Origin: Kribbella soli
Lineage (GTDB): Bacteria > Actinomycetota > Actinomycetes > Propionibacteriales > Kribbellaceae
Direction of reading: 5' to 3'
DNA: 64,000 nucleotides
Assembly: GCF_004331345.1 (NCBI RefSeq)
Contig: NZ_SJJZ01000002.1
Coordinates: forward strand, 1,674,001-1,738,000
A program made the translations under genes and the position numbers. Shown piece after piece: positions 54,430 to 64,000 of the stretch (its first letter is position 1; every line of letters begins with the position of its first letter). The notes beneath the pieces are model-generated. The model worked only from the letters and a program-made list of their open reading frames with translations. It did no database searches and had not been told where the DNA came from.

Positions 54430-55788
54430 CTAGGGCGCGATGTTCTGGTTCAGGTGGAACACGTTGTCCGGGTCGTACTTGCGCTTGACCTCGGCCAGCC
54501 GGTCGTAGTTCTGCCGGTAGTTGTCGCGGATCCGGCCTTGGTCGTCGTCGGCCATGAAGTTGATGTACCCGCCCGCCTCGGAGTGCGGAGAGACATCGTC
54601 GTAGTACGACCGCACCCACTCGATCCCGGCCTCGTTGTCGGCCGGGTCCGGCCACATGCCGGCGATCACGGTCGCGAAGTTCGCGTCCCGGTAGGCGAAC
54701 GCGGTCGCGTCCGGCGTCACCCGGTGGCAGGCGCCGTTGATCGGGTAGATGTGCACGGTCGAGTTCACCGCCGGCAGACCGGGCGCGTGCCGCACGTGCG
54801 CCTGGATCGCCTCGTCGGTCAGCTCGGTGACGAAGTTCGCCTTCCAGTAGTGCTGCAGGCCGGGCGGCACGAGCGCGTCGAAGGCGCTGTTCAGTGCCGG
54901 GTACGGCATCGGCCCGACGTGCTCGGCCATCACCGGCGCGAATTCGCGGAACTTCGAGATCTGCGTCTCGCCCTCGTCGAGGTCGCCGGCCCAGCAGCCG
55001 ACGATCGCCGCGAACGGCTCGCCGTGCCGGTTCTCCGGGATGAACGGCAGCGGCGGCGCGATCTGGAACGCCGGGAACCCACCGAGCTGCTCGGGCGCGT
55101 CCTTGATCAGTTCCCGGAATCCCGACAGTACGGCGACCGCGTCGGACATCTCGAAGAACATCGGGCCGCCGTAGATCGTCGACACCGGCGCCAGCCGGAA
55201 CTCGAGCGCGGTCACCACACCGAAGTTGCCGCCACCGCCGCGCAACGCCCAGAACAGGTCCTCGTTCTCCTTCTCGCTCGCGATCAGGAACTGCCCGTCC
55301 GCGGTCACCACGTCGGCCGACACCAGGTTGTCGCACGACAGCCCGAGGCCCCGGTCGAGGTACCCGATCCCGCCGCCGAGGGTCAGCCCGCCGACGCCGG
55401 TGGTCGAGATGATCCCGCCGGTCGTGGCCAGCCCGAACGCATGCGTGGCCGCGTTGAAGTCGCCCCACGTCGCGCCGCCGCCGGCCCGCGCCGTCCGGTT
55501 CACCGGGTCGACCCGGACGTTGCGCATCCCGCTCAGATCGATGACGAGCCCGTCGTCGACCGTGCCGAACCCCGGCACACTGTGCCCGCCGCCGCGGACC
55601 GCGAGCTCGAGTTCGTTCGTCCGTGCGTAGTCGATCGCCGCCATGACGTCACCGGCGTTCTCGCACCGGACGATCGCCTGCGGCCGCTTGTCGTGCATCG
55701 CATTGTTGACCTTGCGCGCCTCGTCGTACCCCTCGTCGCCCGGCGTGAAGACCTGTCCGCGCGTGCGTTCTCTCAAATCGTCGATCAT
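54430..55788 (-). CDS. FAD-linked oxidase (berberine-bridge/PCMH type)
   Basis: A 452-residue flavoprotein. The FAD-binding PCMH domain has RGGGHSVPGFGTVDDGLVID, whose His is the usual 8-alpha attachment point, and GLSCDNLVSADVV, whose Cys fits a second covalent FAD link. The BBE domain ends with YRQNYDRLAEVKRKYDPDN and NLNQNIAP-like sequence. It probably oxidises a sugar, alcohol or phenolic and reduces oxygen. No signal peptide is seen. ATG 55788 has GGGGAG 7 nt upstream. The 201 bases before it, to the GntR stop, hold only a small GCCGG-TGAG-CCGGC dyad. Confidence 0.9.
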   Translation of the reverse strand: MIDDLRERTRGQVFTPGDEGYDEARKVNNAMHDKRPQAIVRCENAGDVMAAIDYARTNELELAVRGGGHSVPGFGTVDDGLVIDLSGMRNVRVDPVNRTARAGGGATWGDFNAATHAFGLATTGGIISTTGVGGLTLGGGIGYLDRGLGLSCDNLVSADVVTADGQFLIASEKENEDLFWALRGGGGNFGVVTALEFRLAPVSTIYGGPMFFEMSDAVAVLSGFRELIKDAPEQLGGFPAFQIAPPLPFIPENRHGEPFAAIVGCWAGDLDEGETQISKFREFAPVMAEHVGPMPYPALNSAFDALVPPGLQHYWKANFVTELTDEAIQAHVRHAPGLPAVNSTVHIYPINGACHRVTPDATAFAYRDANFATVIAGMWPDPADNEAGIEWVRSYYDDVSPHSEAGGYINFMADDDQGRIRDNYRQNYDRLAEVKRKYDPDNVFHLNQNIAP

Positions 55789-55989: not shown

Positions 55990-56655
55990 TCAATCCCCAG
56001 ACAGAGTGCTGAGCAAGCGGCCCTGAGCCTGCTCGAGGTGGTAGGCCAGGTGATCGGCCGCGGCCGACGAGTCACCCTGCTGGATCGCCTCGAGGATCGC
56101 CGCGTGTTCTTCGGCGACCGTGGTCGGCGCGGCCTTGCGGTGCGCCTGGTACTGGCCCATGGTCAGGTGCACCTCGCCGATGATCAGCTCGTGCATCCGG
56201 GTCAGCCGGCGGCTGCCGACCGCGGCCACCAACGCCGTGTGGAACGCGATGTCCGCCTCGACCTGGTTCTCGAACAGCCGGTCGCGCGCCGCGTACTCGA
56301 TCGCGACCTGCGCCCGGGCGGCGTCGGCCGGCACCTCGCCGGTCGCCGCCAGCGCGGACACCGCCGCCTTCTCGATCGTCATCCGGCTGAAGAACAGGTC
56401 CCGGATCTCGGCCTCGTCGAGCACCGGAACGACCGCTGTCTTGTGCGCCGTACGCCGCAACAGGCCGAGCGCGGTCAGCCGCTCGAGCGCTGCCTTCGCG
56501 GTCGGCCGGGCCACGTTGTACTCCGTGGCGAGCCGGACCTCGGTGAGCTTCTCCCCCTGCGGGATCTCACCGTTCACGATCCGCTTGCGGATCGACTCGT
56601 AGAGCGCGTCGGTCAGCGAGGACGGCCCGAGCTCAAGACGCGCTTCGGTACTCAC
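55990..56655 (-). CDS. GntR family regulator with FCD domain
   Basis: A 221-residue repressor-type regulator. The winged-helix N-terminus (about 12-75) has LYESIRKRIVNGEIPQGEKL and NVARPTAKAALERLTALGLL. The all-helical FCD ligand domain has EADIAFHTALV and later His residues for a metal site. FCD members respond to sugar acids and other carboxylates. GTG 56655 has GGAGGGGG 5 nt upstream. It is the last gene of the GHL6-ABC operon (43 bases after the dehydrogenase), so it probably controls that operon. Confidence 0.9.
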   Translation of the reverse strand: MSTEARLELGPSSLTDALYESIRKRIVNGEIPQGEKLTEVRLATEYNVARPTAKAALERLTALGLLRRTAHKTAVVPVLDEAEIRDLFFSRMTIEKAAVSALAATGEVPADAARAQVAIEYAARDRLFENQVEADIAFHTALVAAVGSRRLTRMHELIIGEVHLTMGQYQAHRKAAPTTVAEEHAAILEAIQQGDSSAAADHLAYHLEQAQGRLLSTLSGD

Positions 56656-56698
56656 AGCACCCCCTCCAACAACGAACTGGTCTGGCAAGTGTACTGGC

Positions 56699-57613
56699 CT
56701 AGTAACCCGCGGCCTTGTCCACCACGTTCCGCAACGGCTCGCCGCCGACGAAACGGCGGATGTTGTCCGCGACGATCTCCTGGTGCCGCCGGACGGTGCC
56801 GTCGCTGGTGGCGCCGTTGTGCGGCGTGACGACGACGTTCGGCAGCGACCAGAACGGGCTGTCCGGCGGCAGCGGCTCCACCCCGTGCGCGTCCAGGCCG
56901 GCGCCCGCGATCTGCCTGGTCCGCACCGCCTCCAGGAGCGCCTCGTCGTCGGCGATCCCGCCGCGCGAGATGCAGATGAAGTACGCCGTCGGCTTCATCC
57001 GCGCGAACGCGTCCCGCCCGAACACACCGACCGTCGAGGGCGTCCGCGGTGTCGTCACCACGACGAAGTCCGACTCCGCGAGCAACCGGTCGAGATCGCA
57101 CAGTTCGTCGACATTCGGCGACGGCTGCCCAGGACGCCGCCGTACGCCGAGAACTCGCATGTGGAACGCCTTCGCCTTCAACGCGAGATCGAGGCCGGAG
57201 TTGCCAAGACCGTAGATACCCACGGTCCGGCCGGCCAACTCGCCGTGGCGGTAGTGGTCCCAGCGGTGCTCGGCCTGCGCGCGCATCCACCGCGGTACGT
57301 CGCGATTGAGCATCAGCATCAGCAGGATCGAGTGCTCGGCGAGCGAGATCCCGCCGTTGCCGGCGCTCGACGTGAGGACGACCGGCGACGCCAGCATCCC
57401 GGGCGTGAGGTCGGCGTCGACACCGGCCGACGGACTGTGCACCCAGCGCAGCCGCGGTGCCTTCACCAGCACCTCCGGCGGCACGCGACCGACCACTCCC
57501 TCCATCTCAGCGAAGACGTCCGAGGCGTCGTCCAGCGCGTCGACGAAGCGCACCGCCACCTCCCCCGCCGCCTCGACGTACACCGGCGATTCCTTGCCTA
57601 CTACAACGATCAT
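56699..57613 (-). CDS. D-2-hydroxyacid dehydrogenase
   Basis: A 304-residue NAD-dependent dehydrogenase with Rossmann motif GIYGLGNSGLDLAL (about 140-153). The catalytic set is present: Arg in ISRGGIADDEALL, acidic residue region GLDAHGVEPLPP and His in VVVTPHNGA. It would interconvert 2-hydroxy and 2-keto acids such as glyoxylate/glycolate or hydroxypyruvate/glycerate. Its ATG overlaps the stop of the permease gene (TGATG). With the GarR-like reductase upstream it suggests that three-carbon sugar-acid intermediates are handled. Confidence 0.9.
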   Translation of the reverse strand: MIVVVGKESPVYVEAAGEVAVRFVDALDDASDVFAEMEGVVGRVPPEVLVKAPRLRWVHSPSAGVDADLTPGMLASPVVLTSSAGNGGISLAEHSILLMLMLNRDVPRWMRAQAEHRWDHYRHGELAGRTVGIYGLGNSGLDLALKAKAFHMRVLGVRRRPGQPSPNVDELCDLDRLLAESDFVVVTTPRTPSTVGVFGRDAFARMKPTAYFICISRGGIADDEALLEAVRTRQIAGAGLDAHGVEPLPPDSPFWSLPNVVVTPHNGATSDGTVRRHQEIVADNIRRFVGGEPLRNVVDKAAGY

Positions 57614-58491
57614 CACTTCAGTCCCGTCGTCGCGATACCGCGGATCAGGTACTTCTGGGCCACGGCGAAGAAGATCAGGATCGGGACCAGCGACAGCAAC
57701 GACATGGCGAACAGCATGCCCACCCCACTCTGGGTCTCGGAGTCGACCATCGAGTTCAGCGCCACCGGCACGGTGAACGCCTGCGTCCTGGTCAGGTAGA
57801 TCAACGGTACGAAGAAATCGTTCCAGGTCCAGATGAAGGTGAAGATCGTGGTCGTCACCAGCGCCGGTCGCATCAGCGGCAGCACGACGTACCAGAAGGT
57901 CAGGAACGGGCCGGCGCCGTCGATCCAGGCCGCCCGGTCGAGCTCGCGCGGCAGCGTCCGGATGAACTGGACCATCAGGAAGACGAAGAACGCGTCGGTG
58001 GCCAGGAACTTCGGGATCAGCAGCGGCCAGTACGTGTTCACCAGGCCGAGCTGCGAGAAGAAGATGTACTGCGGAATGACGAGCACGTGGAACGGCAGCA
58101 TCACCGAGGCGAGCGTGATCGCGAAGTACACCTTCCGCATCCGGAACTGCAGCCGGGCCAGCGCGTACGCCGTCAGCGAGCAGGAGAACAGGTTGCCGAC
58201 GATCGAGGCGATCGTCACCACCAGCGAGTTCACGAAGAACACCGAGAACGGCCGGTTCAGCGCGTGCCAGCCGTCCTTGAAGTTCTGGAACGTCCACTCG
58301 GACGGGATGATGCCCGGTTCGGTCAGGATCTTTTCAGGCGGTTTGAACGCGCTCACCACCATCCACACCAGTGGATAGATCATGAACGCCACGAACACCA
58401 GGAGCCCGGTGTGCTTGAGAACGGCCCGGAGCCGCCGCTGCCGGGCCGGCGCCGGGCTGCTGATCACTTTTCCTGCGGTCAGACTCACCAT
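57613..58491 (-). CDS. carbohydrate ABC transporter permease (MalG-type), second system
   Basis: A 292-residue permease with six hydrophobic helices, the opening YPLVWMVVSAFKPPEKIL and the EAA-loop counterpart RELDRAAWIDGAGPFLTFW. It is coupled by TGATG on both sides. It is the second channel half of the GHL6-linked importer, not closely similar to the system at 17-20 kb. No ATPase gene is in the cluster. Confidence 0.92.
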   Translation of the reverse strand: MVSLTAGKVISSPAPARQRRLRAVLKHTGLLVFVAFMIYPLVWMVVSAFKPPEKILTEPGIIPSEWTFQNFKDGWHALNRPFSVFFVNSLVVTIASIVGNLFSCSLTAYALARLQFRMRKVYFAITLASVMLPFHVLVIPQYIFFSQLGLVNTYWPLLIPKFLATDAFFVFLMVQFIRTLPRELDRAAWIDGAGPFLTFWYVVLPLMRPALVTTTIFTFIWTWNDFFVPLIYLTRTQAFTVPVALNSMVDSETQSGVGMLFAMSLLSLVPILIFFAVAQKYLIRGIATTGLK

Positions 58492-59390
58492 CAGCTGTCT
58501 CCGTAGAAGACCCAGTACTTCGAGACCAGGAAATGCAGCGCCGTCACCACGGCGATCGCGACCATCAGCACCCAGGCGAGTGCGGACGCGTAGCCCATGT
58601 CGAAGGCGACGAACCCCTGCTGGTACACGTACAGCGTGTAGAACAGCGTCGAGTTCGCCGGACCGCCCGTACCACCGCTGATGATGTGCGCCTGGGTGAA
58701 GGTCTGGAACGCGCCGATCGTCTGCAGGATCAGGTTGAAGAAGATGATCGGCGTGAGCAGCGGCACCGTCACGTGCGTGAACTGCCGCCAGACACCCGCG
58801 CCGTCGACGCGGGCCGCCTCGTACAGCTCGTCCGGGATCTGCCGCAGGCCCGCCAGGAAGATCACCATCGGCGACCCGAAGGTCCACACGTTCAGCACGA
58901 TCAGCGTCGCCAACGCCGTCCGCGGGTTCTGCAACCAACTCTCGCCGTGGACCCCGATCAGCGCCAGCCCCTTGTTGATCAGACCTTCGTCACCGAAAAT
59001 CTCCCGCCACAGGATCGCGATCGCCACCGAAGACCCCAGTAGTGACGGCAGGTAGAACGCGCTGCGGTAGAACGCCAGCCCACTCAGGCCGCGGTCGAGG
59101 ATCAGCGCGAGCAGCAAGGCGAAGGCGAGCTGCAGCGGCACCGACACCAGCACGTAGATCAGGGTCACGCGGACCGAGGCCCAGAACTGGTCGTCGTGGA
59201 TCATCCGCTGGAAGTTCTCCAACCCGGTCCACTCCGGCGGATTGAGGATGTCGTAGTTCGTGAACGCCAGATACAGCGACGCGAGCAACGGCACCGCGGT
59301 GATGAGCAGGAACCCCAACTGCCAGGGGATCAGGAAAACGTGTGCCGCCCGCCCCTGGCGATTGAGGTAGAACCTCGAGCGGGACGTCAT
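58491..59390 (-). CDS. sugar ABC transporter permease (MalF-type), second system
   Basis: A 299-residue permease with a short basic N-terminus, six hydrophobic helices (first PWQLGFLLITAVPLLASLYLA) and the EAA loop ELYEAARVDGAGVWRQFTHV. It pairs with the MalG-type protein that follows. Its ATG overlaps the SBP stop (ATGA). The gene runs in one direction with the putative hydrolases upstream, so the imported sugar is probably their product. Confidence 0.92.
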   Translation of the reverse strand: MTSRSRFYLNRQGRAAHVFLIPWQLGFLLITAVPLLASLYLAFTNYDILNPPEWTGLENFQRMIHDDQFWASVRVTLIYVLVSVPLQLAFALLLALILDRGLSGLAFYRSAFYLPSLLGSSVAIAILWREIFGDEGLINKGLALIGVHGESWLQNPRTALATLIVLNVWTFGSPMVIFLAGLRQIPDELYEAARVDGAGVWRQFTHVTVPLLTPIIFFNLILQTIGAFQTFTQAHIISGGTGGPANSTLFYTLYVYQQGFVAFDMGYASALAWVLMVAIAVVTALHFLVSKYWVFYGDS

Positions 59391-60685
59391 GCGGCCCGCT
59401 TGATCCCGGCGCCGATCTCGTCGACCAGCTTCTGAGCGCCGGCCGGCACCGCCGTCTTGCCCAGCGCGATCTCCTCGCAGATCCGGGCCATCGTGGTCCG
59501 CCAGGTGCTCGACCCGGGCGGCGCCTCGTACCGCGGCTTCCGCTCGGCCGCACGTTCCTTCGCGACCACCGCGAGCATCTCCTTCTCGTCCGGGCTCGCG
59601 AACGCGGCAGCCTGCTCGGCGACCTTCGGGTTCGTCGGCGCGCCCATGGTGAGCCGGACCGTCTTCAGCATCTCGGCGTTGTTCACGTTGTAGTCGAGGA
59701 CCTTGCCGGCCGCCTCGAGGTTGCCGTCGTCGATCCGCTGGTAGATCGCCATCCGCGGGAAGTACAGGTACTTGTGCCCGGCCGGCGCGCCCGCGGCGAT
59801 CGGGGCCGCCCGCAGCCGGAACTTCTCCTTCGGGAACATCTTCGCGTCGTCGATGATGTGATTGGAGTTGCCGAAGTTCACCAGGACCTTCTTCCCCACC
59901 TGAGCCCAGTCCGGACCCATCCCCTCCTGCTCGCTCAGTGACAACGCACCGCCGGCCTTGCGCAGCTTCTCCCACCAGTCGAGCCAGCTGCCCAGACCGT
60001 CCGCCGTGAACCCGACCTGACCGTCCTGGGTCCACAGCTGCTCACCCCGCTGCCGCAGCCAGGCCTCGAAGGTGAGGTCGTGGTCGGGCGCGTACGGCGT
60101 ACCCTTGCGCTTCCCGGGATTGTTCTTGCTGTAGGCAACGAGGAGCTCGGCCAGGCTGTCCCAGGTCCAGCCCGGCCCCTCGACCGGAACGGTCACGCCG
60201 TCGGCCTTGGCGACGGTCTCGTTGTAGCGGATCACCGGAGTGAAGATGCCGAACGGCAGCGTGTTGAGCTGCCCGTCGAGCTTGAAGGTCTCCAGGTCTT
60301 CCTTGCTGTAGTCGTCCCATTTCAGCGTGGGGATGTCGTCGAGCTTCCGGTACAGCTTGCTCTTGTGGTACGTCATCACCTGCGGCGACGCGATCCAGAA
60401 GATGTCCGGTACGTCGCGGGCCGCGATCTGCGTCGTCATCCGTTCCTGGAAGGCGGTGTAGTCGGCGAACTCCGGCTCGATCGTGATCGCCGGGTTCGCC
60501 GTACTGAACTGCTTCAGGGCCTTGGTGTAGTTCTGCTGACGGATGTTGTTGCCCCACCACGCGTACCGCAGGGTGACGTCCCCGCCACCGCCCGACGGTC
60601 CGCCGCCGCTCCCGCCGCAGCCGGCGACCGCGGCCGCCGCGAGCCCCGTGCCCAGTGACACCTTGAGAAATCCTCGCCGATCCAT
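59387..60685 (-). CDS. extracellular sugar-binding lipoprotein, second system
   Basis: A 432-residue solute-binding protein. The signal has a twin-arginine start (MDRRGFLKVS) and lipobox AGC (Cys about 23), so it is probably exported folded through Tat and lipid-anchored. A Gly-rich linker is followed by the binding domain (VTLRYAWWGNNIRQQNYTKA, then WTWDSLAELLVAYSK). ATG 60685 with AGGAGA 6 nt upstream is preferred over a start six codons earlier. It is the receptor of the GHL6-linked importer. Confidence 0.92.
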   Translation of the reverse strand: MDRRGFLKVSLGTGLAAAAVAGCGGSGGGPSGGGGDVTLRYAWWGNNIRQQNYTKALKQFSTANPAITIEPEFADYTAFQERMTTQIAARDVPDIFWIASPQVMTYHKSKLYRKLDDIPTLKWDDYSKEDLETFKLDGQLNTLPFGIFTPVIRYNETVAKADGVTVPVEGPGWTWDSLAELLVAYSKNNPGKRKGTPYAPDHDLTFEAWLRQRGEQLWTQDGQVGFTADGLGSWLDWWEKLRKAGGALSLSEQEGMGPDWAQVGKKVLVNFGNSNHIIDDAKMFPKEKFRLRAAPIAAGAPAGHKYLYFPRMAIYQRIDDGNLEAAGKVLDYNVNNAEMLKTVRLTMGAPTNPKVAEQAAAFASPDEKEMLAVVAKERAAERKPRYEAPPGSSTWRTTMARICEEIALGKTAVPAGAQKLVDEIGAGIKRAA

Positions 60686-60695
60686 CTCGTTCTCC

Positions 60696-62516
60696 TCACA
60701 CACAGACGAGTACGTCGAACAATCCGATCTCCGGCACCTGCACCCACCCGTCGCTCACCTGCAGGCGCTCCTGCGCCACCAACGCCCGCACCTCGCGTAC
60801 GCCGGCCGGCACCCGCAACCGGGCCGGCCCGATCCGTACGGGTGGAGCGAATCGCTGGTCGGTGTCCCCCGATCTGTTCAGCAGATGCACGACGAACCCC
60901 GCCGCCGACCGCCCCACCACGATCTCGACCTGCTCCGGCAGGTCCGTCTGCACCGCTCCGCCCACCTGATCCACGAACAGATCGCGATGAACGCTCAATC
61001 CCACCTCTCGGTAGGCCCGTCCGATGGTCCACGGGAAGAGCACCACGTTGCCCTGCTTGACCATCCCGGGACGGTCGAGCAGCACGTGTCCGTGGCACTT
61101 CTCCGGTGGGCCGTACGGCGCTCTCGACAGGGCTCGTAGCGCGACCTCGGCGTCGGACGGTGCCTCGACGACCTCGAAGGTCCCGAACACCGGGACACCA
61201 CCCTCGAGGTGCAGCGACCGCACCTCCGCCTCGGTCTCGTACCGGGCAAGCGGCCTGATCGGGAGCGCCGGCACCGTTGTGGTGCCGGTGGCAACTACCG
61301 CTCCGTCGTACGTGCCGAGGTCGACCGGCCCGAGGTCCGGCAGCACGACCACCTGATAGCGACTCAAGTCGACGTCGGCGAGACGGTGTTCGGGAAGGAC
61401 GTCGAATGGCACGTGGCGTTGCAGAAGCGCCAGGTACAAGCCTTCGAACTCCGCCCGCGAGCGCTCCGACCTGACCAGAAGGGTCTGCGCGGCCGGTACC
61501 AGGTCGCGATAGACCTCCGAGTGGTCACGGTGGAACCGCGTGAGCCGGGACGCGACGTCCAGGCAGGCGTACGGCGTGGTCTCCGGCGTCCCCATGATGT
61601 ACGTCGACGGGTTGGCGCCGCGGGCGATCGCCTGCACCAGGTACTGCGCGAAGTGATGCGGATCCTCACTGGCCATCCGGTACGGCATGTCCACGAAGCC
61701 CACCGAGTTGGTCAGCACCGGGACCGTGGGACGGAAGGTCTTCGCCGCGCTCACGCTCTCGCTGGTTCGGTGATGCCACAACCGCCGGCCGACCGCGTTG
61801 TTCGCCTCGTGGAACACGATGTCCGCCTGATCACCGAGGACCAACGGTGCCTCTGGACGTCGAGCCGCCAGGTGATCCCGGATCCTCCCGGTGAGATCGG
61901 CCAGCACGTCCTTCGAGAACCGTTGCCAGTCCGCATACCCGGGTGAGTCACGGTCGTCCGGCAGCGGACCGTCGTACCGCTCCTGACATGCCACGCAGTG
62001 GCAGACCCCGTGGTAGACGCGGCTGTAGTCGACCTCGTTGAACGACATCCAGTTGCAGAAGAAGCCGTCCAGCGGATACCGATCGAGCACCTCGTCGAGG
62101 ACCTCGAACAGCTTCACCTGGTAGTAGTCACCACTCGGGCACACACTCGTCAGCCCGTTGTAGACCTGCCGCGCCCCGGTCGGTCCGACGAAGCACCAGT
62201 CCGGATGCGCCTCCGCCCGCCGATGGTCGATCTTGGAGAAATCCATCCGCCCCATCACGCGGATGCCGCGCCGCGCCGCTGCCTTCACCGCGTCACCGAC
62301 CAGGTCTCCGGACGGCCGCTCCGCCAGATACGGGTTGCGCGTCTGGAACTCCAGATCGGTCGGGTAGTTCGACAGGATCCCGCCGACGCTCAGCAACCAG
62401 GTGTCCGCACCGAACTCCTCCAGGTAGTCCAGCACCGACTCGACGTCCAGCCCCGCGTCGATCTCGCGCAGGTTGGTCTGGAACATCCGGAACGGGTCCT
62501 GCCACCAGAGCCTCAT
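60696..62516 (-). CDS. putative glycoside hydrolase, GHL6-like
   Basis: A 606-residue protein. The N-terminal barrel (about 1-350) resembles the hypothetical glycosyl hydrolase 6 (GHL6) group: WWQDPFRMFQTNLREIDAG, the RVMGRMDFSKIDHR strand, DGFFCNWMSFNEVDYSRVY (candidate acid residues) and CHCVACQERYDG with a Cys cluster. It is followed by a beta-galactosidase-trimerisation-like region (about 360-460) and a strand domain. There is no signal peptide, so it should act on imported oligosaccharide in the cytosol. The activity of GHL6 proteins is not established. Its start overlaps the GarR-like stop (ATGA). Confidence 0.7.
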   Translation of the reverse strand: MRLWWQDPFRMFQTNLREIDAGLDVESVLDYLEEFGADTWLLSVGGILSNYPTDLEFQTRNPYLAERPSGDLVGDAVKAAARRGIRVMGRMDFSKIDHRRAEAHPDWCFVGPTGARQVYNGLTSVCPSGDYYQVKLFEVLDEVLDRYPLDGFFCNWMSFNEVDYSRVYHGVCHCVACQERYDGPLPDDRDSPGYADWQRFSKDVLADLTGRIRDHLAARRPEAPLVLGDQADIVFHEANNAVGRRLWHHRTSESVSAAKTFRPTVPVLTNSVGFVDMPYRMASEDPHHFAQYLVQAIARGANPSTYIMGTPETTPYACLDVASRLTRFHRDHSEVYRDLVPAAQTLLVRSERSRAEFEGLYLALLQRHVPFDVLPEHRLADVDLSRYQVVVLPDLGPVDLGTYDGAVVATGTTTVPALPIRPLARYETEAEVRSLHLEGGVPVFGTFEVVEAPSDAEVALRALSRAPYGPPEKCHGHVLLDRPGMVKQGNVVLFPWTIGRAYREVGLSVHRDLFVDQVGGAVQTDLPEQVEIVVGRSAAGFVVHLLNRSGDTDQRFAPPVRIGPARLRVPAGVREVRALVAQERLQVSDGWVQVPEIGLFDVLVCV

Positions 62517-63361
62517 GAGTGCTCCCGGCGCAACGTCCGGTACAGCGCGGAGTGGTCCAGCTCCCCGTCCCCGTCCGCGATGGCAGCGTTCATCAACTGC
62601 TGCGTCGCGGCGGTGTTCGGCAGCGCCAGATCCAGTTCGGCCGCGGCCTGAGCGGCGAGCCCGAGGTCCTTACGGTGCAGCCGGAGCCGGAACCCCGGCT
62701 CGAAGGCCTCGTTGACCATCCGCTCGCCGTGCACCTCGAGAATGCGTGAGCTCGCGAACCCGCCCATCAGCGCCCGCCGTACGACGGCCGGATCCGCGCC
62801 GGCCCGTTCCGCGAACAGCAGTCCCTCGGCCACCGCTTCGATGGTCAGCCCGACGATGATCTGGTTCGCGACCTTCGCGGTCTGCCCGGCACCGGGACCG
62901 CCGATCAGCGTGACGTTCTTCCCGAGGACGTCGAAGATCGGCCGCGCCCGCTCGAACACCTCCGGCCGGCCGCCGACCATGATCGTCAACGTCCCGTCCC
63001 GCGCACCGAGCTCGCCACCGGACACCGGTGCGTCCAGGTAGTCGCAGCCCAATTTGTCGATCAGCTGTGCGAAACCGATGGTGGCGGTCGGCGAGATCGA
63101 GCTCATGTCGATCACCAATGACTCTGCCCGCAGCCCCTCGGCGGCTCCGCCCGGCGCGAACAACGCCGCCTCGACGTCCGGGGTGTCCGGCACCATCAGG
63201 ATCACGACCTCGGACCGCTCGGCCACCTCCTTGGCCGACGCACACACGTGTGCCGCGAGGTCGGTCCGGCCGCGATACACAGACAGTTCGTGGCCGGCAG
63301 CAATCAAGTTGTCCGCCATCGGACGGCCCATCACTCCGAGCCCGATGAACCCGATCCTCAT
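62513..63361 (-). CDS. 2-hydroxy-3-oxopropionate reductase-like (GarR/GlxR type)
   Basis: A 282-residue beta-hydroxyacid dehydrogenase with the N-terminal GFIGLGVMGRPMADNL dinucleotide loop, the substrate segment DAPVSGGELGARDGTL and the catalytic Lys in GAGQTAKVANQI. GarR converts tartronate semialdehyde to glycerate in glucarate, galactarate and glyoxylate metabolism. Here the operon context points to a sugar-acid or modified-sugar route, although related members act on other substrates. It overlaps both neighbours by ATGA. Confidence 0.87.
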   Translation of the reverse strand: MRIGFIGLGVMGRPMADNLIAAGHELSVYRGRTDLAAHVCASAKEVAERSEVVILMVPDTPDVEAALFAPGGAAEGLRAESLVIDMSSISPTATIGFAQLIDKLGCDYLDAPVSGGELGARDGTLTIMVGGRPEVFERARPIFDVLGKNVTLIGGPGAGQTAKVANQIIVGLTIEAVAEGLLFAERAGADPAVVRRALMGGFASSRILEVHGERMVNEAFEPGFRLRLHRKDLGLAAQAAAELDLALPNTAATQQLMNAAIADGDGELDHSALYRTLRREHS

Positions 63362-64000
63362 GGCCGGCTCCAATCGACGTGCACGACCTCGAGCAGCCCG
63401 GCGGTCGGAATCACGATCTCGGCCCGCCCGTCCACGACTGTCGGCTCCAGGTCCACCCCGGCCACCAGCAGCCGGACCTTCGGCCGATCCGTCGGTACGG
63501 CGATCGACACGGTCTGCGGCGGCAACGGGAGCGTCTCCCGGATCGCCCCTCGCATCGCCATCGGATTCGTGAGGTTGACCAACGCAACGGCGACTTCGTG
63601 CTCGCCCCGATGGACCGCGATGTCCACCAGCCCCGCGCCGTCGACCGTCACCTCGGGCGTCTTGCCGAGCGCCCAGGAGACCGCGTTCCCGATCAGTCGG
63701 CCATGGTCGGACTGCAACGCCTCCCAGAAGATCGCTCCGAGGTCGAACGGGAAGTAGACCGTCCGGCCGCCCTGGGCGTTCTCGGTGCAGATCACCGCGG
63801 GCTTGTCCGGAGCTTCTCGCTGGTAGACCTCTTCCATCGGCAGGTCCGGGAAGTCCGGGATGAACCGGAACGGCGTCACCGCATCCGACTCGACCCCGAT
63901 GATGTGGGTGCCACCGATGATCCGGGTCGTACCCTCGAAGCCGGCGTTCAACGGATGCGCGTCGGTCAACGCGATGTAGTTGTTCTGCACCGGCCGGCTC
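63358..64000 (-). CDS. C-terminal part of a second putative glycoside hydrolase
   Basis: The frame stays open to the right edge of the window (codons before the GTG at 63990 read S-R-P), so the start is missing and 214 codons are seen. The visible part has a glutamine-amidotransferase-like/trimerisation segment (RIIGGTHIIGVESD, PAVICTENAQGGRTVYFPFDLG, LIGNAVSWALGK) and a C-terminal strand domain. The pattern resembles the C-terminal half of GHL6/beta-galactosidase-like proteins, as in the neighbour at 60696. It is coupled to the GarR-like gene. Confidence 0.6.
   Translation of the reverse strand, partial: SRPVQNNYIALTDAHPLNAGFEGTTRIIGGTHIIGVESDAVTPFRFIPDFPDLPMEEVYQREAPDKPAVICTENAQGGRTVYFPFDLGAIFWEALQSDHGRLIGNAVSWALGKTPEVTVDGAGLVDIAVHRGEHEVAVALVNLTNPMAMRGAIRETLPLPPQTVSIAVPTDRPKVRLLVAGVDLEPTVVDGRAEIVIPTAGLLEVVHVDWSRP

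Follow-up and report, generated by a model that had tools for sequence, protein, structure and literature searches.

Gene Content and Organization of the Locus

The window analyzed here is a 64,000-nucleotide stretch of contig NZ_SJJZ01000002.1 from Kribbella soli (genome of 8,785,001 bases), and its final part (window coordinates 55990-64000) holds an operon encoding two proteins of the Pfam family GHL6 (PF14871), here called GHL6a and GHL6b, together with the solute-binding protein (SBP) and two permeases of an ATP-binding cassette (ABC) importer, a GarR-type reductase, a D-isomer 2-hydroxyacid dehydrogenase (2HADH) and a GntR/FCD regulator. The sequence beyond position 64000, which the earlier note on this DNA had proposed to obtain, was fetched as region L004 and completed GHL6a at 692 amino acids (aa), the gene reaching position 65436 in window numbering; it also contained a divergent gene, Hyi. 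The nine genes are as follows.

L004:10518-11315 (beyond the window), divergent from GHL6a: Hyi, hydroxypyruvate-isomerase-like by its best NCBIfam match; ninth gene of the unit
63358..64000, minus strand: C-terminal part of GHL6a (whole protein 692 aa, L004:8359-10437); first gene of the operon
62513..63373, minus strand: GarR, tartronate-semialdehyde reductase (beta-hydroxyacid dehydrogenase; Pfam NAD_binding_2/11, TIGR01505)
60696..62516, minus strand: GHL6b, 606 aa (Pfam GHL6), no export signal seen; GH151-like fold with N155 at the GH151 nucleophile position
59387..60703, minus strand: solute-binding protein SBP_bac_8/1 (Pfam); Tat-like signal (PF10518, 17.8 bits, below the cut-off of 22.7)
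58491..59390, minus strand: ABC permease 1 (Pfam); nearest NCBIfam models UgpA/MalF, both below their cut-offs
57613..58494, minus strand: ABC permease 2 (Pfam); nearest NCBIfam models GlcU/UgpE/MalG, all below their cut-offs
56699..57616, minus strand: 2HADH (2-Hacid_dh_C, 169.9 bits), of the hydroxypyruvate/glyoxylate reductase type by family
55990..56688, minus strand: GntR/FCD transcriptional regulator (Pfam); last gene of the operon

Taking the listed starts, the gene junctions overlap by 4, 8 or 16 nucleotides, and 10 nucleotides separate 2HADH from the FCD gene; for permease 2, an ATG one codon downstream of the listed start is the likelier one. The earlier note had described eight tightly overlapped genes including two GHL6 proteins, a GarR-like reductase, a 2-hydroxyacid dehydrogenase, an FCD regulator and an importer without its own ATPase. 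All eight are present on the minus strand and belong to the families named there, and both GHL6 proteins exceed the curated Pfam cut-off of 35 bits (GHL6b, 116.6; GHL6a, 60). No ATPase gene lies in the operon, the five MalK-type ATPase domains over cut-off in this genome all being located elsewhere. An SBP and two permeases with a MalK-type ATPase encoded elsewhere correspond to a CUT1 importer with a shared ATPase, as in the actinomycete importers that share MsiK.

Fold and Active Site of the GHL6 Proteins

AlphaFold2 models of GHL6a and GHL6b (pLDDT 88.9 and 95.0) have the same best structural match, PDB 6TVK, the GH151 alpha-L-fucosidase ALfuk2 of Paenibacillus thiaminolyticus. GHL6a aligns with a Z score of 30.3 over 626 residues (next chain 23.6) and GHL6b with 32.0 over 559 aligned residues at a root mean squared deviation of 3.4 (next chain 24.2). 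Both proteins are thus predicted to have the full-length three-domain fold of GH151 enzymes such as ALfuk2, Mfuc3 and Blon_0346, at 16-18% structural identity. Profile searches matched 6TVK as well (E = 6.8e-23 for GHL6a and 2e-30 for GHL6b); phmmer with the single GHL6b sequence returned nothing among PDB chains at E up to 1.

The two proteins depart from GH151 at the active site. In the profile alignment, residue 183 of the 6TVK chain falls on N168 of GHL6a and N155 of GHL6b, and this residue corresponds to D154 once a 29-residue tag is subtracted (chain length 689, range 1-660). The review PMC10154630 gives D154 as the nucleophile and E235 as the acid/base of the 6TVK enzyme. An alignment of 94 sequences, many of them closely related (24 GHL6a, 51 GHL6b and 19 from other GHL6 regions), has Asn at the nucleophile position in 94/94, an R-x-D motif on strand 3, where GH151 has Y-x-S, in 94/94, and an acid on strand 6 in 93/94. 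GHL6a and GHL6b therefore both lack the GH151 nucleophile Asp at the end of strand 4. The acids at the end of strand 6 are D261 in GHL6a and E237 in GHL6b; they are at most candidate counterparts of E235, since the column is gapped in three of the four Asp-type rows. Ten further GHL6 loci came from a phylum search, and among the eight readable at the site four have both R-x-D and Asn and four have Asp without R-x-D, which argues that the two changes are linked; a profile-guided alignment makes L201 N-type. The sequences divide Pfam GHL6 into two site types at least, a GH151-like D-type and the N-type found here. With three D-type proteins as the root of the tree, the GHL6b sequences group in a single clade that includes the newly found L195 (support 0.98), and GHL6a is nested among other N-type proteins. 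Conserved Arg or Lys residues lie at or after barrel strands (R90 and R280 in GHL6b; R100, R265, K305 and K332 in GHL6a). GH42 beta-galactosidases share the barrel, the trimerization domain (GHL6a passes PF08532) and a CxCxxC motif (conserved in GHL6b), but GHL6b misses the cut-off of the GH42 barrel model PF02449 (18.6 vs 21 bits) and GH42 scores lower than 6TVK in the structural comparison.

These results narrow the claim that GHL6 is a family without known activity. Pfam GHL6 covers GH151 fucosidases: PMC4723247 reports a GHL6 (pfam14871) match for Mfuc3, an active alpha-L-fucosidase recovered by functional screening, and PMC10154630 places Mfuc3 in GH151 after reclassification. The idea that this operon could reveal the first substrate of GHL6-type enzymes at large is likewise unsupported. 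GH151 enzymes are described in PMC8395109 as poorly active towards fucosylated substrates, with doubts raised about the family. The description holds better for the N-type branch, which lacks the GH151 nucleophile; a literature search that included few subscription papers and was judged by listings found no study of an N-type GHL6 operon. Loss of the catalytic acids from the barrel, named by the earlier note as grounds for rejecting its proposal, applies in part: the GH151 nucleophile is missing, and the conserved acids on strands 3 and 6 remain.

The four D-type proteins (L192, L193, L194 and L197) occur in other actinomycetes and, to judge from these residues, may be true GH151 enzymes. Kribbella genomes also encode a third branch, GHL6c, about 30% identical to GHL6a and followed directly, after 10 nucleotides, by malate synthase A (L138:9715-13312). 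The same pair is found in L135, L136, L137, L139, L140 and L148, with carbohydrate-type permease genes nearby. Malate synthase is present in 8 of the 20 regions around other GHL6 proteins, about 3 kb away in L147, a neighbor that hints at glyoxylate as a product of GHL6c.

Linkage to a Three-carbon Acid Module

Among 84,980 species genomes scanned there were 210 relatives of GHL6b, from which 80 loci were kept and the 71 of at least 9 kb were counted. GarR was found at 52 of these loci, 2HADH at 54, either reductase (within 10 kb) at 61, both at 45, Hyi at 31 and glycerate kinase at 11 (two queries). GarR or 2HADH occurred in 0/18 random 20-kb regions, a control drawn from actinomycetes only for loci that span more phyla, and in 3/20 regions taken from the order around other GHL6 proteins, these three being reduced Kribbella operons with GHL6a orthologues of 85-87% identity. 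When the 59 loci of at least 15 kb were collapsed to 36 labels (mostly genera, with a few higher-rank bins and Occultella counted twice for its two kinds of locus), GarR or 2HADH was present in 32 of the 36. The linkage extends to Clostridiales, Pedobacter, Segetibacter, Paenibacillus, Devosia, Inquilinus and Chloroflexi. A Clostridiales locus (L125) encodes 2HADH, GHL6b, GarR, an MFS_2 transporter, AraC, a MOFRL glycerate kinase and GH2, and in Ruania (L073) GarR, Hyi, 2HADH and glycerate kinase are all present. Importers near GHL6a or GHL6b are of the carbohydrate type at many loci. The annotated neighbors of the compared loci include no GarD, GarL or glyoxylate carboligase.

The two GHL6 proteins differ in their company. 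With a GHL6a orthologue defined by an identity of 38% or more, Hyi was detected in 28 of 32 loci that have the orthologue and in 2 of 27 that lack it (14/17 and 1/19 by label), and 2HADH in 30/32 and 16/27, respectively. Because Hyi tracks GHL6a whereas GarR and 2HADH also occur at GHL6b loci without it, the data suggest that the two enzymes differ in the form of the acid that they free, or in the linkage that they attack.

Closer to the source genome, a search with GHL6b at E up to 1e-3 matched 32 of 196 genomes of the order, many of the matches belonging to other GHL6 branches. A tblastn comparison of the operon genes over 17 fetched regions and the operon's own region found the nine genes intact in 9 of 12 other same-genus regions. 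In the remaining three, the SBP gene is in two pieces (L039), Hyi has no match (L042) or GarR and Hyi have none (L038). All nine genes occur, rearranged, in L048 from another family, and four more distant regions hold parts of the set. The reduced operons of three Kribbella genomes (L145, L153 and L154) encode GHL6a, 2HADH and FCD in 3/3 and GarR and Hyi in 2/3 each, with no match for GHL6b or the importer genes.

Promoter Region and Regulator

The 80-bp promoter region between GHL6a and Hyi contains the near-palindrome TTGTTAGACAA. A block with TTGTTAGACAA or TTGTCAGACAA is kept in 10/10 aligned GHL6a/Hyi intergenic regions of Kribbella, and the three remaining same-genus regions, outside the alignment, also carry such a site. 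The pattern TTGTYWRACAA has a single site in the genome, that between GHL6a and Hyi (listed on both strands), compared with three for the reversed control pattern. The looser TTGTYNRACAA occurs at 22/80 GHL6b loci and in 1/18 random regions, mostly adjoining GHL6a, Hyi, GHL6b, SBP or FCD genes, in Kribbella, Nonomuraea, Nocardiopsis and relatives, Occultella, Saccharopolyspora, Kineococcus, Phytoactinopolyspora and Microbacterium. The FCD protein is the putative binder of TTGTTAGACAA. Hyi, which shares with GHL6a the promoter region that bears the near-palindrome, belongs to the same unit, and the locus is best explained as one local regulon of nine genes.

Reductases, Isomerase and Glycerate Kinases

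The GarR protein of the window passes the tartronate-semialdehyde reductase equivalog TIGR01505 (351.3 bits vs a cut-off of 340.75), as do two others among the six GarR proteins tested, from a Clostridiales bin and from Sphingobium. One other GarR over this cut-off is encoded in the genome, at C2:2532198, with a PF02595 glycerate kinase some 2 kb away (G000:C2:2532198-2535954); this pair probably serves a housekeeping glyoxylate route, so the operon GarR looks like a dedicated copy. The genome encodes two PF02595 glycerate kinases, and the pathway could therefore be completed. The glycerate kinases found at the compared loci are assigned firmly at the family level. For 2HADH, the best NCBIfam match is D-2-hydroxyacid dehydrogenase at 189.6 bits vs a cut-off of 400, a family-level assignment only. 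Hyi of Kribbella scores 213.7 bits against TIGR03234, below the equivalog cut-off of 353.45; the Agrobacterium homologue passes it (371.1) along with a 2-oxo-tetronate isomerase model, and the Sphingobium homologue passes the latter alone. The isomerase could thus act on hydroxypyruvate or on 2-oxo-tetronate.

GarR, Hyi and glycerate kinase are families that the operon module has in common with the gar and glx glycerate routes (garR-garK; hyi-glxR-glxK). It differs from these in being joined to GHL6 and an importer, and it stands apart from the other GarR beside its glycerate kinase. L-threonate use, raised by the matches to 2-oxo-tetronate isomerase, is the less likely reading: 0/6 GarR proteins reach the threonate dehydrogenase cut-off, 3/6 pass that for tartronate semialdehyde, and neither OtnK nor OtnC is found among the annotated neighbors. 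Allantoin/glyoxylate use, raised by hyi-glxR-glxK, was set aside, there being no glyoxylate carboligase among these neighbors.

Plasmid-borne and Apparently Exported Forms

On annotated plasmids of Agrobacterium tumefaciens, Rhizobium bangladeshense and Martelella mediterranea, GHL6a is accompanied by genes for an ABC importer, by otnI or hyi, and by 2-hydroxy-3-oxopropionate reductase, and a plasmid of Rhizobium acidisoli has GHL6b, GarR and a carbohydrate importer, with a D-2-hydroxyacid dehydrogenase and an MR_MLE gene on the opposite strand. About 14 kb of a plasmid of Sphingobium sp. TomTYG74 encodes GHL6a, GHL6b, glxR, hydroxypyruvate isomerase, D-glycerate 2-kinase, an L-lactate permease and hydroxypyruvate reductase. 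By eye, the N termini of the GHL6 proteins of Sphingobium and Pedobacter read as Tat- or Sec-like export signals, and the clusters of both encode a lactate permease (41% identical to each other). GHL6b of Segetibacter also has an export signal, with no lactate permease match at its locus. Since apparently exported GHL6 proteins and a lactate permease occur together at the Sphingobium and Pedobacter loci, the small acid seems, on the strength of these two loci, to be released outside the cytoplasm there and then taken up.

Proposed Function and Alternatives

We give about an even chance to the proposal that the locus is a regulon for an external glycoside or oligosaccharide carrying a three-carbon (C3) acid, in which GHL6a and GHL6b free an acid of the hydroxypyruvate, tartronate-semialdehyde or glycerate level, which is then converted to D-glycerate. 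To judge by their families, import of the substrate would fall to the SBP and both permeases, with a MalK/MsiK-type ATPase encoded elsewhere supplying the power. GHL6a and GHL6b, with a GH151 fold bearing R-x-D on strand 3, Asn on strand 4 and the acid on strand 6, would cleave it in the cytoplasm, and the linkage data point to a C3 acid at one of these three levels as the product freed. Hyi could interconvert hydroxypyruvate and tartronate semialdehyde, GarR and 2HADH would reduce the C3 oxo-acids to D-glycerate, and a glycerate kinase encoded elsewhere would feed this into glycolysis. The FCD protein may sense an acid of the pathway and bind TTGTTAGACAA between GHL6a and Hyi. Comparative evidence backs the C3 proposal strongly, since GarR, 2HADH, Hyi and glycerate kinases recur beside the GHL6 genes. 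The earlier note's idea of a glycan-use operon yielding a three-carbon aldehyde acid is accordingly supported, both as to a glycan- or glycoside-use operon and as to the C3 oxo-acid outlet, and its interpretation as a whole is supported in part.

Several observations weigh against this proposal. Known glycans gave no match with a suitable C3 acid, and we know of no GHL6 enzyme of the N-type branch with a known substrate or activity. The C3 acid could instead stem from a sugar acid handled by enzymes encoded elsewhere. Glycerate kinase had no match at 60/71 GHL6b loci (two queries), neither reductase is found in 4/36 labels (Pseudonocardia, a Firmicutes bin, Planctomycetota and Opitutaceae), and L150, whose GHL6a relative is 43% identical, lacks both GarR and 2HADH. 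Neither reductase is among the annotated neighbors of GHL6 in Marinovum, Shinella or Novosphingobium, or of GHL6c in R. leguminosarum and Sinorhizobium, and the GHL6c branch adjoins malate synthase, not the C3 module. The GarR proteins of Pedobacter, Paenibacillus and Actinotalea (336 vs 341 bits) fall below the TIGR01505 cut-off, 0/5 2HADH proteins tested reach the cut-off of a named NCBIfam model, and the lactate permease is present at two loci only.

The alternatives differ in the product released and in the reaction by which it arises. An ordinary acidic-glycan operon, which we consider unlikely, would have GHL6a and GHL6b free a uronic or aldaric acid that is oxidized, dehydrated and split elsewhere to pyruvate and tartronate semialdehyde, with GarR acting at the end of the garD-garL-garR-garK route. 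GarR and glycerate kinase are indeed the textbook final two steps of galactarate and glucarate use, a mannonate-dehydratase protein passing NF003027 is encoded between 2HADH and GHL6b in L115, and MR_MLE genes resembling sugar-acid dehydratases lie near GHL6 in L049, L143 and L176 and, by annotation, in L182 and L183. However, by tblastn the mannonate dehydratase has no match at any other locus, MR_MLE matches occur at 3/80 main loci (L078, L106 and L110) vs 1/18 random regions, Hyi and 2HADH are superfluous to such a route, and the operator pattern, being found once in the genome, would not co-control enzymes elsewhere. A uronate route based on recurring neighbors was consequently rejected, the dehydratase being confined to L115 and MR_MLE no clearer than background; the uronate-containing substrate favored by the earlier note gains little support, as no uronate-use gene recurs in the compared neighborhoods. 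Quite unlikely, as a variant within the C3 proposal, is L-glycerate as the product, which GarR would oxidize to tartronate semialdehyde, Hyi would convert to hydroxypyruvate and 2HADH would reduce to D-glycerate for the kinase, a redox-neutral inversion. This is the sole scheme in which all four of GarR, Hyi, 2HADH and glycerate kinase are needed, a combination that occurs in Sphingobium and in Ruania L073, but Hyi is absent at 25 of the 27 GHL6b loci without GHL6a, and three rhizobial-type GHL6a clusters are without 2HADH by annotation.

Two further alternatives concern the chemistry of GHL6 itself. The loss of the GH151 nucleophile and the conserved Arg and Lys residues around the barrel would suit a reshaped barrel acting as a lyase, retro-aldol enzyme or isomerase on an acidic sugar to give hydroxypyruvate or tartronate semialdehyde directly, and the module enzymes belong by family to those acting on 2-oxo or 3-oxo acids; the full GH151/GH42 domain set is nevertheless retained, down to the GH42 trimerization match of GHL6a, and carbohydrate-type importers lie at many loci, which makes a non-hydrolase improbable. 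Most improbable is that GHL6a and GHL6b are GH151 alpha-L-fucosidases, the dehydrogenases serving the breakdown of fucose or L-galactose (lactaldehyde, glyceraldehyde). The structural and profile matches to 6TVK are strong, L115 and L114 have GH29 fucosidase genes close to GHL6, and alpha-L-fucosidase and GH95 genes are annotated near GHL6c in L182. Against a fucosidase stand the Asn that faces D154 in all 94 sequences, its joint occurrence with R-x-D in four of the eight further actinomycete sequences (the other four having Asp and no R-x-D), and the lack of any fucose-pathway gene among the annotated recurring neighbors.

The C3 proposal makes a testable prediction: a defined enzyme branch, a product class (a C3 acid) and a single-site regulator that could report the inducer. 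If true, it would mean an overlooked acid-bearing glycoside in soil and rhizosphere, cleaved at a glycosidase site unlike that of fucosidases with the same fold. The related gene sets of distant bacteria hint at a similar compound in their case, and Sphingobium and Pedobacter offer natural cases of apparent release of the acid outside the cytoplasm. A broader hypothesis, put forward tentatively and more probably wrong than right, is that N-type GHL6 proteins constitute a new glycoside-cleaving family in which the carboxylate has moved from strand 4 to strand 3, and which frees small oxo- or hydroxy-acids (C3 acids by GHL6a and GHL6b, perhaps glyoxylate by GHL6c) from widespread, unrecognized acid-bearing glycosides in several phyla. 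On either scale, the notion that GHL6 overall has no known activity is corrected.

Neighboring Genes

The operon is adjoined at 54430-55788 by a BBE-like FAD oxidase gene, with the same neighbor in 10/12 other same-genus regions. It has no tblastn match in five other-family regions, and a homologue of 38% identity is found in L060. Its best NCBIfam matches are of the BagK/FevA1 types, far below cut-off. Being syntenic within the genus and unmatched in those five regions, it was excluded from the unit. In Sphingobium (L178:23115-24182) and Pedobacter (L129:8824-9864), GHL6b is adjoined by an apparently exported protein of about 350 residues that looks beta-propeller-like by eye (30% identity between the two), and the annotation of Shinella has a PD40-domain protein close to a GHL6-like one.

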